NCBI RefSeq assembly: GCF_009831575.1
Contig: NZ_WUUT01000003.1
Span: 432,748 to 496,747, forward strand
DNA: 64,000 nt
DNA from: Halovenus carboxidivorans
GTDB taxonomy: Archaea; Halobacteriota; Halobacteria; Halobacteriales; Haloarculaceae
Direction of reading: 5' to 3'
Positions 35,915 through 39,849 of this stretch are shown here, one piece after another. The position numbers and the translations under genes are program-made. Position 1 is the stretch's first letter, and each line of letters opens with the position of its first letter. The notes beneath the pieces were generated by a model. That model was given only the letters and a program-made list of their open reading frames with translations. It searched no databases and was not told the DNA's origin.

Positions 35915-36017
35915 CCGGCCGATCCGACCTCGACACAGTTGGCTCCGTCAGTAGGGGCGCGGTGTCGTCCGGCGGAGACAGGCTGATATATGCCCGGACA
36001 CTACCACCGCCATCCAC

Positions 36018-37445
36018 ATGTCCGGTCAGATCGGACTGACTGTCTACTCGGCCGATGCGGTCTCCCGGATGACGACCGCACAGCTCCGGGATTCGCTTTC
36101 GTACTTCTCACCCGATGTCGTCGCGGTCGCCCGGCCCCAACACGAACGACAACTCCGACAGGCGCTCTCGTCGGAGACGCCGACCGTCGTCACCGAGCGG
36201 ACTCAGCGGACGGTACAGCGACTCTACAGCTCTGCGTCGGTCGATCTCGTTCGAGTTGCCGGCGTCGACTCATTAGGAGAACTCGTGGCTCTCGAAGGCG
36301 ATGGGGTCTCGGTGTCGGGCGAGACCTACGTGCTCTCGGATCTGCTCAGCGTCGATCTCGATCTGGTCAACCTCGAAACCCGTCTCGACGGACGCGAGGC
36401 GTACGAAGCGGCCGTTCCGGACGACCTCTCCGGGAGCTACACCCACCTCACGACCGAGGCGAACCCGGGCTACCGCAACGACTGGGGGTCGCTCGCGGTC
36501 CAGGGAGCCATGCCCGGTGCGAACGAACGACAGGGACAGACCGCTCCCGGCATCGCCCACCTCCGGTTGCGGGCCGACGGCGTCGTCTGTACCCGCACCC
36601 GCTCGCCCGAGCAGTTCGGCCTGCGCGCGCTGGAGCAGGTCGGGGAGACCCGTGCGCAGACGTTGCGAGAGGCCGGCTTTCGCTCGCGGGAGGCCGTCGC
36701 AGCGGCCGATCTCACCGACCTTCGGGAACTGACGGGGTTCGGCCGCGAGACGGCCCGGACCGTCATCGAAAGCGCGACTGCGACGGTCGAGGGCACCGTC
36801 CGACGGTACGGCGACGAGGGCTTCCCCGGGGCCGATCCCGTGTTCATCGATATCGAGACCGACGGACTCAACCCGACGATGATCTGGCTGATCGGGGCGC
36901 TGGACGCCAGCACCGACGAGTACCGGTCGTTTCTCGCGCGGGAGGAACCCGCCGCGGCGCTTGAAGCCTTTCTCTCCTGGCTCCAGCACACCGTCGGCAG
37001 CCGGCCCGTCGTCGCCTACAACGGTCGCTCGTTCGATTTCCCGGTTATCGAGGAACAACTCGCCGAACACTGTCCCCAGTATCTCGACGTGTGGGACGAC
37101 ATCTGGACCTTCGATCCGTACTACTGGGCGACGACGAGAGACCAGGCGCTGTTGCCCGGCCGGACGAACAAACTGGGTGACGTCGCGGCCGCGCTGGGCT
37201 GGGACGACGCCGGGACGGGGCTGACGGGTGCGGCCGTCGCCCGTCTGTTTCAGCGCTGGCAGGCCAATCCCTGCGAAGCGACCGAACTCGACTGGGAGCG
37301 TCACGAACGGTACTGCGAAGACGACGTGCGTGCGCTCGCGTACGTCTACGACGCGCTGGCGGAGGCGAGTCGGACTCACCGTGCGGGCACTGACACCTCC
37401 GCGACGGGGAGCGACACCACCCAGGGACAACTGAGTGATTTCTGA
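36018..37445 (+). CDS. MrfB/YprB-like 3'-5' exonuclease with HhH region
   Basis: A protein of 475 residues. A DEDDy exonuclease (RNase_H_2/YprB type) spans about 270-450: Exo I VFIDIETDGLNP (Asp 278, Glu 280), Exo II AYNGRSFDFPVI (Asp 340), and Exo III RYCEDDVRALAY (Tyr 432, Asp 436). Before it, about 200-252, a helix-hairpin-helix region (ALEQVGETRAQTLREAGF, ELTGFGRETARTVI) should bind DNA. Residues 1-195 form an unrecognised domain. The helicase gene begins 1 nt after the stop, so the two are one operon. In Bacillus, MrfB is the metal-dependent exonuclease partner of the MrfA helicase in mitomycin C lesion repair; a similar role here is inferred. Confidence 0.9.
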   Translation: MSGQIGLTVYSADAVSRMTTAQLRDSLSYFSPDVVAVARPQHERQLRQALSSETPTVVTERTQRTVQRLYSSASVDLVRVAGVDSLGELVALEGDGVSVSGETYVLSDLLSVDLDLVNLETRLDGREAYEAAVPDDLSGSYTHLTTEANPGYRNDWGSLAVQGAMPGANERQGQTAPGIAHLRLRADGVVCTRTRSPEQFGLRALEQVGETRAQTLREAGFRSREAVAAADLTDLRELTGFGRETARTVIESATATVEGTVRRYGDEGFPGADPVFIDIETDGLNPTMIWLIGALDASTDEYRSFLAREEPAAALEAFLSWLQHTVGSRPVVAYNGRSFDFPVIEEQLAEHCPQYLDVWDDIWTFDPYYWATTRDQALLPGRTNKLGDVAAALGWDDAGTGLTGAAVARLFQRWQANPCEATELDWERHERYCEDDVRALAYVYDALAEASRTHRAGTDTSATGSDTTQGQLSDF

Positions 37446-37446
37446 G

Positions 37447-39849
37447 ATGAGCGAGTACACCCCGACCACCGACGAGGTGCTGGACCCCGGGACGCTCCGG
37501 GAGAGCTATCCCGACTACGAGGGGCAACTGCAACACACCCAGACGCTGCCCGCCCGCGAGGCCGACCACGTCCCGGCGAGCAGCGTCCTCCCGGCGCGGT
37601 TGGCCGACGCCCTCGGCGCCGACCTGTACTCCCACCAGGGGGAGGCGCTGGAACTGCTGACAGACGGGGACGACGTCACCGTCGCCACGTCGACGGCCTC
37701 CGGCAAGACCTGGATCTACACGCTGTACTTCGCGCTGTTGAAACAGCGCAACCCGGACGCCCGCGGCATCTTCCTCTACCCGACGAAGGCGCTGAGCGCC
37801 GACCAGGAGGCGGCGATCAACGACCTCTTCGAGCGGTTGGGCGTCGACGCGACGGCGGAGACTTACGACGGCGACACCCCGAGCGACCGCCGACCGCTGA
37901 TCCGCGACCGGGCGGATGTCGTCATCTCGAACTTCGCGGGAATCAACGTCTATCTGAACAGCCACGCGAAGTGGCGGTCGCTGTTCCGGGACTGCGAACT
38001 GCTCGTCCTCGACGAGAGCCACACCTACACCGGCATTCACGGGATGCACGTCGCGTGGACGCTGCGCCGGCTCAGACGACTGCTCGATTACTACGGCGCC
38101 GACCCGCAGGTGGTCTGCTCGACGGCCACCATCGGCAACCCCGCCGACCACTCGCGACAGATCACGGGGAGCGAGTCCGCCGTCGTCGACGAGGACGGCA
38201 GCCCGCGGGGCCGCAGAGAGATCGCCTTCTGGCAGCCACGCGTCACCGACGAGGAGGCCGGCGCCCTCACCGACGACGGCCTCCTGCCAGCGATGCGGCA
38301 GGGAGCCAACGGCGAGACAGCCGAACTCGCCGCGCACCTCGGCCTCCACGGCGTGCAGACGCTGGCGTTTACGCGGTCCCGACAGGGAACCGAGATCGCG
38401 GCCAAACAGGCGGTCAACGCCGCCCGTGAGCATCCCGACGGCGGCTATCTCGATGTCGACCCCTACCACGCCGGGCTGAGCAAGGAGAAACGCCGATCGA
38501 TCGAGTACGCGCTCAAACAGGGCGACACCGACATCGTCTTCACGACCAACGCCCTCGAACTCGGCATCGACATCGGCTCGGTCGACGCGACGGTGCTGTC
38601 GGGCTATCCGGGAACGCGACAGTCCTTCTGGCAGCAGGTCGGCCGGGCGGGTCGCGGTACCTCGACGGCGCTCTCGGCGCTGGTTCCCCGCGGGGACGCA
38701 ATCGATCAGTACATCCTCGACAACCCGGAGTACCTGCTCGCTGACGACGTCGAGGACGCGGTCGTCGACCTGGACAACGACGCCGTCTACGCCCGACACG
38801 TGCTCTGTGCCAGCGCGGAGCGACCGCTGACGCGGGCCGACGCGGAGTGGTTCGGCCCCGAGGACCGACTCCGACGCGCCGTCGAGATGTGGCGTGATGC
38901 CGGCCAGATGACCGGCGACCTGGATCGCGGGGCGCAGTACGACGGCCCGCCGCGCCCGCAGGCCGACATTTCGATGTACGCGAGCACGGACGAGCAGTAC
39001 AGCGTCAGGTGTACGAACGGCGACATCGACATGGAGCCGCTCGGCCGCGACCGGGTGTACCGGGAGTACCACCCCGGCGCGCTGACGCTGTACGACGGCC
39101 AGCAGTACGAGGTCCAGGAGGTCGTCGAGGACGTGCCCCGGCCGTACGTCGAACTCCGGGCGGTCTCGACGCGGGAGTACACGCGCACGCTGAGCGACAA
39201 GCAGATCCGGGATATCGAGAGCCAGCGGCGGATCGACCTCGGCGGCGGGTTCGTCCTCCACGCCGGAATGGGGACCGTCGACGTGCACTACCACTCCTTC
39301 AAACGGATCGATATCGACACCGGCCAGCCCGTCGGTCCCCCGCAGGCGACCGGGTTAGAACCGCTCTCGCTGCGCACGCAACTCACCTGGATCCGACTCC
39401 CCGAACGCCTCCTCGACCGCGTTCTCGGAGAGATCCCCGACGACTCGATGCTCGATCCCCCGGAGGAGAGTCCGCTGGGCGACCAGGAGTGGACGCTGGC
39501 GGGAGGGCTGCACGGCGCAGAGCACGGGATGATCAAACTCGCACCGCTCACGCTACGTCTCGACAACTCCGACATGGGTGGACTGAGTACGCTCGCCCAC
39601 CCCGAGACCCACTCGCCGGTCTGGTTCATCCACGACGCCGTCGAGGGCGGAGTCGGGTTCGCTCACAGCATCTACGACAACTTCGAGGCGGTCGCCGCGA
39701 AGACCCGCGAGCGGGTCGACTCCTGTGACTGCGGCCGCGACGAGGGCTGTCCGGCCTGTCTGATGAGTTCGCAGTGTGGCAACGAGAACGAACCGCTGCA
39801 CCGGCCGGCCACCACCGCGATCCTGGACGCGGTGCTCGACCGGCTGTAA
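37447..39849 (+). CDS. MrfA/YprA-like DExH helicase with C-terminal Cys cluster
   Basis: A protein of 800 residues, superfamily 2. The Q/I region is SHQGEALELL, Walker A TASGKT (83-88), motif II VLDESH (DESH 189-192), motif III STAT-type CSTATIGNP, and motif VI QQVGRAGRG in the second RecA domain. The C-terminal DUF1998-like region ends with five Cys (760, 762, 768, 771, 777; pattern CDCGRDEGCPACLMSSQC), as in MrfA and the related Hrq1/RecQ4 helicases. The start MSEYTP is 1 nt after the exonuclease stop. Unwinding damaged DNA for the upstream nuclease is the likely role. Confidence 0.93.
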   Translation: MSEYTPTTDEVLDPGTLRESYPDYEGQLQHTQTLPAREADHVPASSVLPARLADALGADLYSHQGEALELLTDGDDVTVATSTASGKTWIYTLYFALLKQRNPDARGIFLYPTKALSADQEAAINDLFERLGVDATAETYDGDTPSDRRPLIRDRADVVISNFAGINVYLNSHAKWRSLFRDCELLVLDESHTYTGIHGMHVAWTLRRLRRLLDYYGADPQVVCSTATIGNPADHSRQITGSESAVVDEDGSPRGRREIAFWQPRVTDEEAGALTDDGLLPAMRQGANGETAELAAHLGLHGVQTLAFTRSRQGTEIAAKQAVNAAREHPDGGYLDVDPYHAGLSKEKRRSIEYALKQGDTDIVFTTNALELGIDIGSVDATVLSGYPGTRQSFWQQVGRAGRGTSTALSALVPRGDAIDQYILDNPEYLLADDVEDAVVDLDNDAVYARHVLCASAERPLTRADAEWFGPEDRLRRAVEMWRDAGQMTGDLDRGAQYDGPPRPQADISMYASTDEQYSVRCTNGDIDMEPLGRDRVYREYHPGALTLYDGQQYEVQEVVEDVPRPYVELRAVSTREYTRTLSDKQIRDIESQRRIDLGGGFVLHAGMGTVDVHYHSFKRIDIDTGQPVGPPQATGLEPLSLRTQLTWIRLPERLLDRVLGEIPDDSMLDPPEESPLGDQEWTLAGGLHGAEHGMIKLAPLTLRLDNSDMGGLSTLAHPETHSPVWFIHDAVEGGVGFAHSIYDNFEAVAAKTRERVDSCDCGRDEGCPACLMSSQCGNENEPLHRPATTAILDAVLDRL

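Follow-up and report, generated by a model that had tools for sequence, protein, structure and literature searches.

A conserved helicase-exonuclease gene pair of Halobacteria resembles MrfAB and carries a putative PCNA-interacting box

Does the haloarchaeon Halovenus carboxidivorans possess a counterpart of MrfAB (YprAB), the helicase-exonuclease pair of Bacillus subtilis, or a machine of another descent? The question is raised by a two-gene unit in a stretch of 64,000 nucleotides (assembly GCF_009831575.1, contig NZ_WUUT01000003.1, positions 432,748 to 496,747 of the forward strand; hereafter the window), where an exonuclease gene is followed, after 1 base and on the same + strand, by a helicase gene (Table 1). 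An earlier reading of the DNA letters (the original prediction) had taken these genes for an MrfB-MrfA-like partner set in one operon, of the kind that removes mitomycin C (MMC) lesions in Bacillus. We found that the gene pairing, both active sites, the Zn cluster of the helicase and a putative PCNA-interacting (PIP) box at the end of the exonuclease are conserved. From these features we infer a repair role and propose, with a probability of about 0.6, a clamp-tethered helicase-exonuclease that would resect the damaged strand 3′ to 5′ and hand over to a PCNA-bound polymerase, beside UvrABC.

The pairing is strict. Among 145 Halobacteria genomes, each of the 60 full matches to the exonuclease has the helicase directly 3′ on the same strand, and a scan of GTDB genome contigs gave 80 further named loci, all from Halobacteria, with the helicase downstream in every one and the two open reading frames (ORFs) abutting or overlapping in most. 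This adjacency is far above chance. The survey of gene adjacency that the original prediction had proposed thus upholds its description of one unit, and the coordinates agree: the best start of the helicase is the ATG at 37447, 1 base from the TGA of the exonuclease, and its stop lies at 39847-39849. When all ORFs around 102 loci were clustered, the exonuclease and the helicase were the only recurrent families, the next one being present in 13 loci; a conserved third gene was rejected, since no other family recurs beside the pair at these loci. As a separate observation, Halobacterium salinarum R1 carries the pair on PHS3 as OE_RS12870 and OE_RS12865, with a third gene behind it that codes for a diverged RNase_H_2 protein of 214 aa (L228 11945-12589).

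Both catalytic centers are preserved as well. The exonuclease has the RNase_H_2 (DnaQ-like) domain expected of MrfB/YprB (Pfam 1.9e-27), and its residues D278, E280, D340, Y432, and D436 are unchanged in 34 of 34 paired homologues, which identifies the active site as DEDDy, as had been called from the single sequence. The helicase gave Pfam matches over the cut-off to DEAD (1.8e-22), Helicase_C (4.4e-15), WHD_HRQ1 (1.1e-6), and MZB (1.4e-18), and among solved structures it comes closest to B. subtilis YprA/MrfA, which it matches over almost its entire length (6znp, E = 2e-99). Its Walker A, DExH, and motif VI are intact, and the conserved Zn cluster contains the four cysteines in CDCGRDEGCPAC at residues 760-771. 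These profile and structural matches place the helicase in the YprA/MrfA family, and its earlier assignment to the MrfA type with a C-terminal multi-Cys cluster was correct.

The strongest mechanistic clue is the C-terminal PIP box, which the original prediction had missed. The motif QxxLx[DE][FWY] stands within three residues of the end in all 34 paired exonucleases, after a linker that varies in the alignment and is predicted to be disordered (AlphaFold2 (AF2) predicted local distance difference test (pLDDT) < 50 for residues 456-475). A slightly looser pattern matched the tail in 80 of the 80 scanned loci, and the motif is present in 76/76 paired exonucleases versus 2/1097 other ORFs. The tail was not selected for by the scan, as the scan patterns came from the Exo I and Exo III nuclease motifs and did not include the C-terminus. 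In the whole 3.2-Mb genome, just four ORFs end in QxxLxDF, namely this exonuclease, Nre, RNase HII, and Hel308, the last of which is a PCNA client. RNase HII is likewise a listed PCNA/PIP client, and the PIP motif of NreA in H. volcanii is required, together with UvrABC, for the repair of MMC damage (PMC4929162, PMC7776575). NreA thus shares with the exonuclease the C-terminal box, as do other archaeal PIP-box repair factors, and MMC repair depends on it together with PCNA, but the two proteins are unrelated, and NreA has no nuclease or helicase domain. The archaeal PIP motif is given as QxxLxxFx (PMC7776575); the exonuclease tail fits a motif of this type, usually with one aromatic residue, and the protein is very likely a PCNA client.

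In the mechanism that we propose, the helicase would translocate on single-stranded DNA and open the duplex or move to the blocked site, as deduced from MrfA/SftH. The helix-hairpin-helix (HhH) domain of the exonuclease would grip the DNA while its two-metal DEDDy site digests one strand 3′ to 5′, as its fold and invariant residues suggest, and the flexible tail, with a box recognized by its conservation, would tether the enzyme to the sliding clamp PCNA. Such a tether would limit resection to clamp-marked DNA, on which a PCNA-bound polymerase and ligase could then act directly. By analogy with MrfAB, the substrates would most likely be bulky adducts or crosslinks. This proposal is supported by the strict gene order (60/60 and 80/80), the invariant nuclease residues, the intact helicase motifs, MrfA as the nearest structure, and the presence of the PIP box throughout. 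The pair would act beside UvrABC: UvrB is encoded in 144 of the 145 genomes, so the pair is an addition to UvrABC and not a substitute; judged by the presence of UvrB, the idea of a replacement was rejected. Action without UvrABC and a link with strong sunlight, both raised in the original prediction, find no support in that form.

A PIP box held in common with RNase HII and Hel308 would also suit a replication-fork or Okazaki/3′-end maturation factor, in which a PCNA-bound 3′ to 5′ exonuclease and a helicase trim 3′ flaps, R-loop-associated strands, or stalled 3′ ends and excise no adducts. Proofreading exonucleases of DNA polymerases are among the top Foldseek matches of the full exonuclease model, but this match is unspecific, the fold being common to all DEDD exonucleases, and the patchy presence of the pair (55 of 145 genomes) is unlike that of a core replication factor. 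We therefore consider such a role unlikely.

We then asked how closely the pair is related to MrfAB itself. The two systems have in common a two-gene unit with a YprA-family helicase bearing an MZB domain and an adjoining 3′-5′ exonuclease of the RNase_H_2 fold. In B. subtilis, however, the helicase gene comes first (yprA-yprB), whereas the haloarchaeal unit starts with the exonuclease. The haloarchaeal protein also has an added HhH domain, a metallophosphoesterase (MPE)-like N-terminal domain, and the PIP box. MrfB has His258 at the Exo III position and a C-terminal tetratricopeptide repeat (TPR) domain (PMC11194089). The haloarchaeal enzymes are not of the DEDDh type, as Tyr432 occupies the general-base position of Exo III in 34/34 paired exonucleases, and a C-terminal TPR domain is absent from the window protein, which stops 28 residues past the nuclease domain, within its disordered tail. 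In a tree of nuclease domains, the haloarchaeal exonuclease joins MPE-HhH-RNase_H_2 proteins (98/96), apart from MrfB, although the branches are long; forcing it into the MrfB clade costs 11 log units and is marginally disfavored (approximately unbiased (AU) test, p = 0.062). A match of its HhH and nuclease regions to TIGR03491 (TM0106 family; E = 5.6e-11) lies far below the family cut-off. The exonuclease is thus related to MrfB, though probably not as its orthologue.

The helicase also stands apart. In a quick tree, the paired haloarchaeal helicases formed a clade separate from MrfA, other paired helicases, and solo YprA proteins. Their Cys spacing, CxCx6CPxC, occurs in 21/21 of them and in 0/25 others, while MrfA and 24 others have CxCx4CPxC; the haloarchaeal cluster is therefore two residues longer than that of MrfA, solo YprA, and the helicases of other Halobacteriota. 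The original notion of an MrfB-MrfA-like partner set accordingly holds for the YprA/MrfA helicase, the RNase_H_2 fold in common with MrfB, and the strict pairing, but probably not for orthology with MrfB.

Closer counterparts of MrfB were found in other Halobacteriota. These exonucleases have 330-380 aa and an HNxxD motif in 14/14 (DEDDh), and one of them matches the MrfB structure 8un9 (E = 4e-25); on this evidence, the short proteins are genuine MrfB relatives. Ten of their genes immediately precede a YprA helicase gene in non-haloarchaeal Halobacteriota (L199, L200, L201, L202, L204-L208, and L211), and by these matches the distribution of the MrfAB pair in archaea extends beyond the haloarchaeal version. 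They also contain an HhH-like stretch next to RNase_H_2, which speaks against the earlier view that HhH units had replaced the MrfB arrangement in the archaeal enzyme. Unlike the haloarchaeal exonucleases, they lack the N-terminal domain, and the PIP tail is absent from all 14 sequences. A profile comparison linked the two groups over the HhH and nuclease regions (hhalign probability 99.2, E = 1.2e-19), indicating that they are homologous.

This homology, together with the same gene order beside YprA helicases, would agree with a vertically inherited archaeal MrfAB whose exonuclease evolved fast and which handles MMC-type adducts in exactly the Bacillus manner, the PIP box and the N-terminal domain being lineage additions; a grouping of the haloarchaeal exonuclease with the MrfB clade is not formally rejected by the AU test. 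Such an account has to contend with the Tyr of all 34 paired enzymes against the His of MrfB and its 14 relatives, the TPR domain and helicase-first order of the Bacillus system, the grouping of the nuclease domain with MPE-HhH proteins, and the separate helicase clade with its own Cys spacing. We hold it to be possible but rather doubtful.

Residues 1-195 of the exonuclease, which the original prediction had called unrecognized, indeed match no Pfam family (all 33 N-terminal domains were searched), but structure prediction gave them a fold. AF2 modeled them with high confidence (pLDDT 90.9), and the top 34 Foldseek matches of this model in the PDB all belong to the MPE superfamily (5′-nucleotidase, Mre11/SbcD, GpdQ, YfcE, and others), seven with E ≤ 1e-3 (best E = 2.4e-5); the TM-scores are modest, the best being ~0.57. 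G163 and G188 are the only invariant residues in the 33 sequences. Since the invariant set includes neither Asp nor His nor Asn, catalysis by this domain is unlikely. It is predicted to be an MPE-like (calcineurin-like) fold without conserved catalytic residues, and would probably serve as a catalytically dead scaffold, perhaps as a docking surface for the helicase.

The MPE reading is supported by the sister proteins, calcineurin-like phosphoesterase-HhH-RNase_H_2 proteins encoded on haloarchaeal plasmids (L101 4326-5765 (-), L102 5564-7006 (-), L103 5741-7183 (-), and L104 4573-6015 (+)), which have a recognizable MPE domain at the corresponding position (Pfam 5.6e-9). A profile comparison of the N-terminal domain with this active MPE domain gave no match, so that the assignment rests on the predicted fold and the sister-group architecture. 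These proteins have the same domain order and a DEDDy site and are the nearest relatives of the nuclease domain, but they have neither a helicase partner nor a PIP box. Another unpaired member is encoded on H. hubeiense plasmid pSTJ002 (L230), with a gene for a 214-aa RNase_H_2 protein ~1.5 kb downstream. In a further Halobacteriota genome, one frame (L197 5948-7201 (-)) joins the C-terminal remnant of an MPE-like domain to a stretch resembling phage integrase and to RNase_H_2, and is possibly a disrupted gene of this type.

Several points weigh against the repair role that we propose for the pair. Because the exonuclease is probably not orthologous to MrfB, a function in MMC repair is transferred by analogy only. 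Most genomes without the pair have a diverged solo YprA helicase, and the function of the pair is therefore not universal. Solo YprA is found in 81 of the 145 genomes and both forms in eight, a nearly mutual exclusion (Fisher p = 1e-15). As the exclusion tracks families closely, its p-value does not count as independent evidence; the pattern may reflect functional replacement or just family history. A second RNase_H_2 protein (255 aa, HhH-like, YNQED, no PIP box), encoded in the Halovenus genome with no adjoining YprA helicase (L065 1438-2205 (-)), was considered as the partner of solo YprA and rejected, as it is not adjacent in L088-L100. In addition, many copies of the pair are plasmid-borne, and 46 plasmid records contain it or a distant relative, a location that also suits a role in plasmid maintenance or against mobile elements.

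The plasmid copies, and the fact that several defense systems are defined by YprA-family helicases (PMC12458937), bring up a module that degrades or controls foreign or replicating plasmid or viral DNA at PCNA-loaded forks. One plasmid subtype (L081, L082, and L229; e.g., NZ_CP101159.1 83046-97595) encodes a PLD-family protein, a second YprA helicase, the exonuclease, its YprA helicase, and Mre11-like and SMC/Rad50-like proteins, and is possibly a DNA-processing or defense island. Yet no defense gene recurs beside the pair in the 102 loci: partner genes of DISARM, ARMADA, Druantia, or Dpd were not recurrent there, and padloc gave generic helicase matches only. The helicases of DISARM, Druantia, Dpd, ARMADA, and BRIGADE belong to the same family but to other branches, which differ in their partners and in having nucleases fused or encoded downstream; none of these is present at the window locus; the helicase studied here has no fused nuclease, and its nearest solved relative is MrfA. 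The neighbors of the window copy are metabolic genes, and a preprint assigns MrfB-associated YprA to a repair branch (PMC12458937). The exonuclease had no match among 50,697 phage records, on which basis a viral origin was also rejected. Taken together, a defense or plasmid-maintenance module appears quite improbable.

The features of the locus are listed in Table 1. The TATA-like box has a spacing typical of haloarchaeal promoters, which suggests a leaderless transcript for both genes.

Table 1 Features of the exonuclease-helicase unit, in positions of the window.
Feature	Position	Strand	Basis
TATA-like box (gatatatg), ~30 nt 5′ of the exonuclease ATG	35985..35992	+	Read from sequence
Exonuclease gene, 475 aa: MPE-like N-terminal domain, HhH, RNase_H_2 (DEDDy), C-terminal PIP box	36018..37445	+	
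Residues 1-195, predicted MPE-like fold without invariant metal-ligand residue	36018..36602	+	AF2 and Foldseek
HhH domain, residues 204-253	36627..36776	+	Pfam HHH_5 1.4e-10
RNase_H_2 3′-5′ exonuclease domain, residues 275-447	36840..37358	+	Pfam 1.9e-27; invariant D278, E280, D340, Y432, D436
Ser/Thr/Asp-rich linker, residues 456-468, variable, predicted disordered	37383..37421	+	AF2 pLDDT, alignment
Putative PIP box QGQLSDF, residues 469-475, C-terminal	37422..37442	+	Pattern conservation
YprA/MrfA-family SF2 DExH helicase gene, 800 aa	37447..39849	+	
RecA1 (DEAD), residues 62-230, with Walker A and DESH	37630..38136	+	Pfam DEAD 1.8e-22
RecA2 (Helicase_C), residues 301-403, motif VI QQVGRAGR	38347..38655	+	Pfam Helicase_C 4.4e-15
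MZB (MrfA Zn-binding) domain, residues 691-772	39517..39762	+	Pfam 1.4e-18
Cys cluster CxCx6CPxC within the MZB domain	39724-39759	+	

With respect to origin, the nuclease-domain tree, the separate helicase clade, and the longer Cys cluster favor, but do not prove, an assembly of the haloarchaeal pair independent of bacterial MrfAB. The fuller version of this idea, to which we give somewhat less than even odds, is that Halobacteria combined a YprA helicase with an MPE-HhH-RNase_H_2 nuclease, whose phosphoesterase domain decayed to a dead scaffold, into an excision machine of their own, and wired it to the clamp through the PIP box. Among the open-access papers found, none reports an MrfAB-like pair of haloarchaea that bears a PIP box; the YprA preprint covers the repair branch in general terms only (PMC12458937), and the MrfAB papers examined contain no link of that pathway to the sliding clamp. 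Since the genetically tractable H. salinarum R1 has a version with the putative clamp tag, the clamp question can be tested directly.

If our proposal is correct, haloarchaeal repair gains a PCNA-dependent nuclease; two of its components, a helicase whose role overlaps redundantly with that of UvrD and a UvrA-independent step of transcription-coupled repair, still await assignment (PMC7776575). If the assembly was independent, Halobacteria would run, alongside UvrABC, a strand-excision pathway directed by PCNA and with a possible link to NreA, and pairs of a helicase and an RNase_H_2 exonuclease may have arisen more than once.

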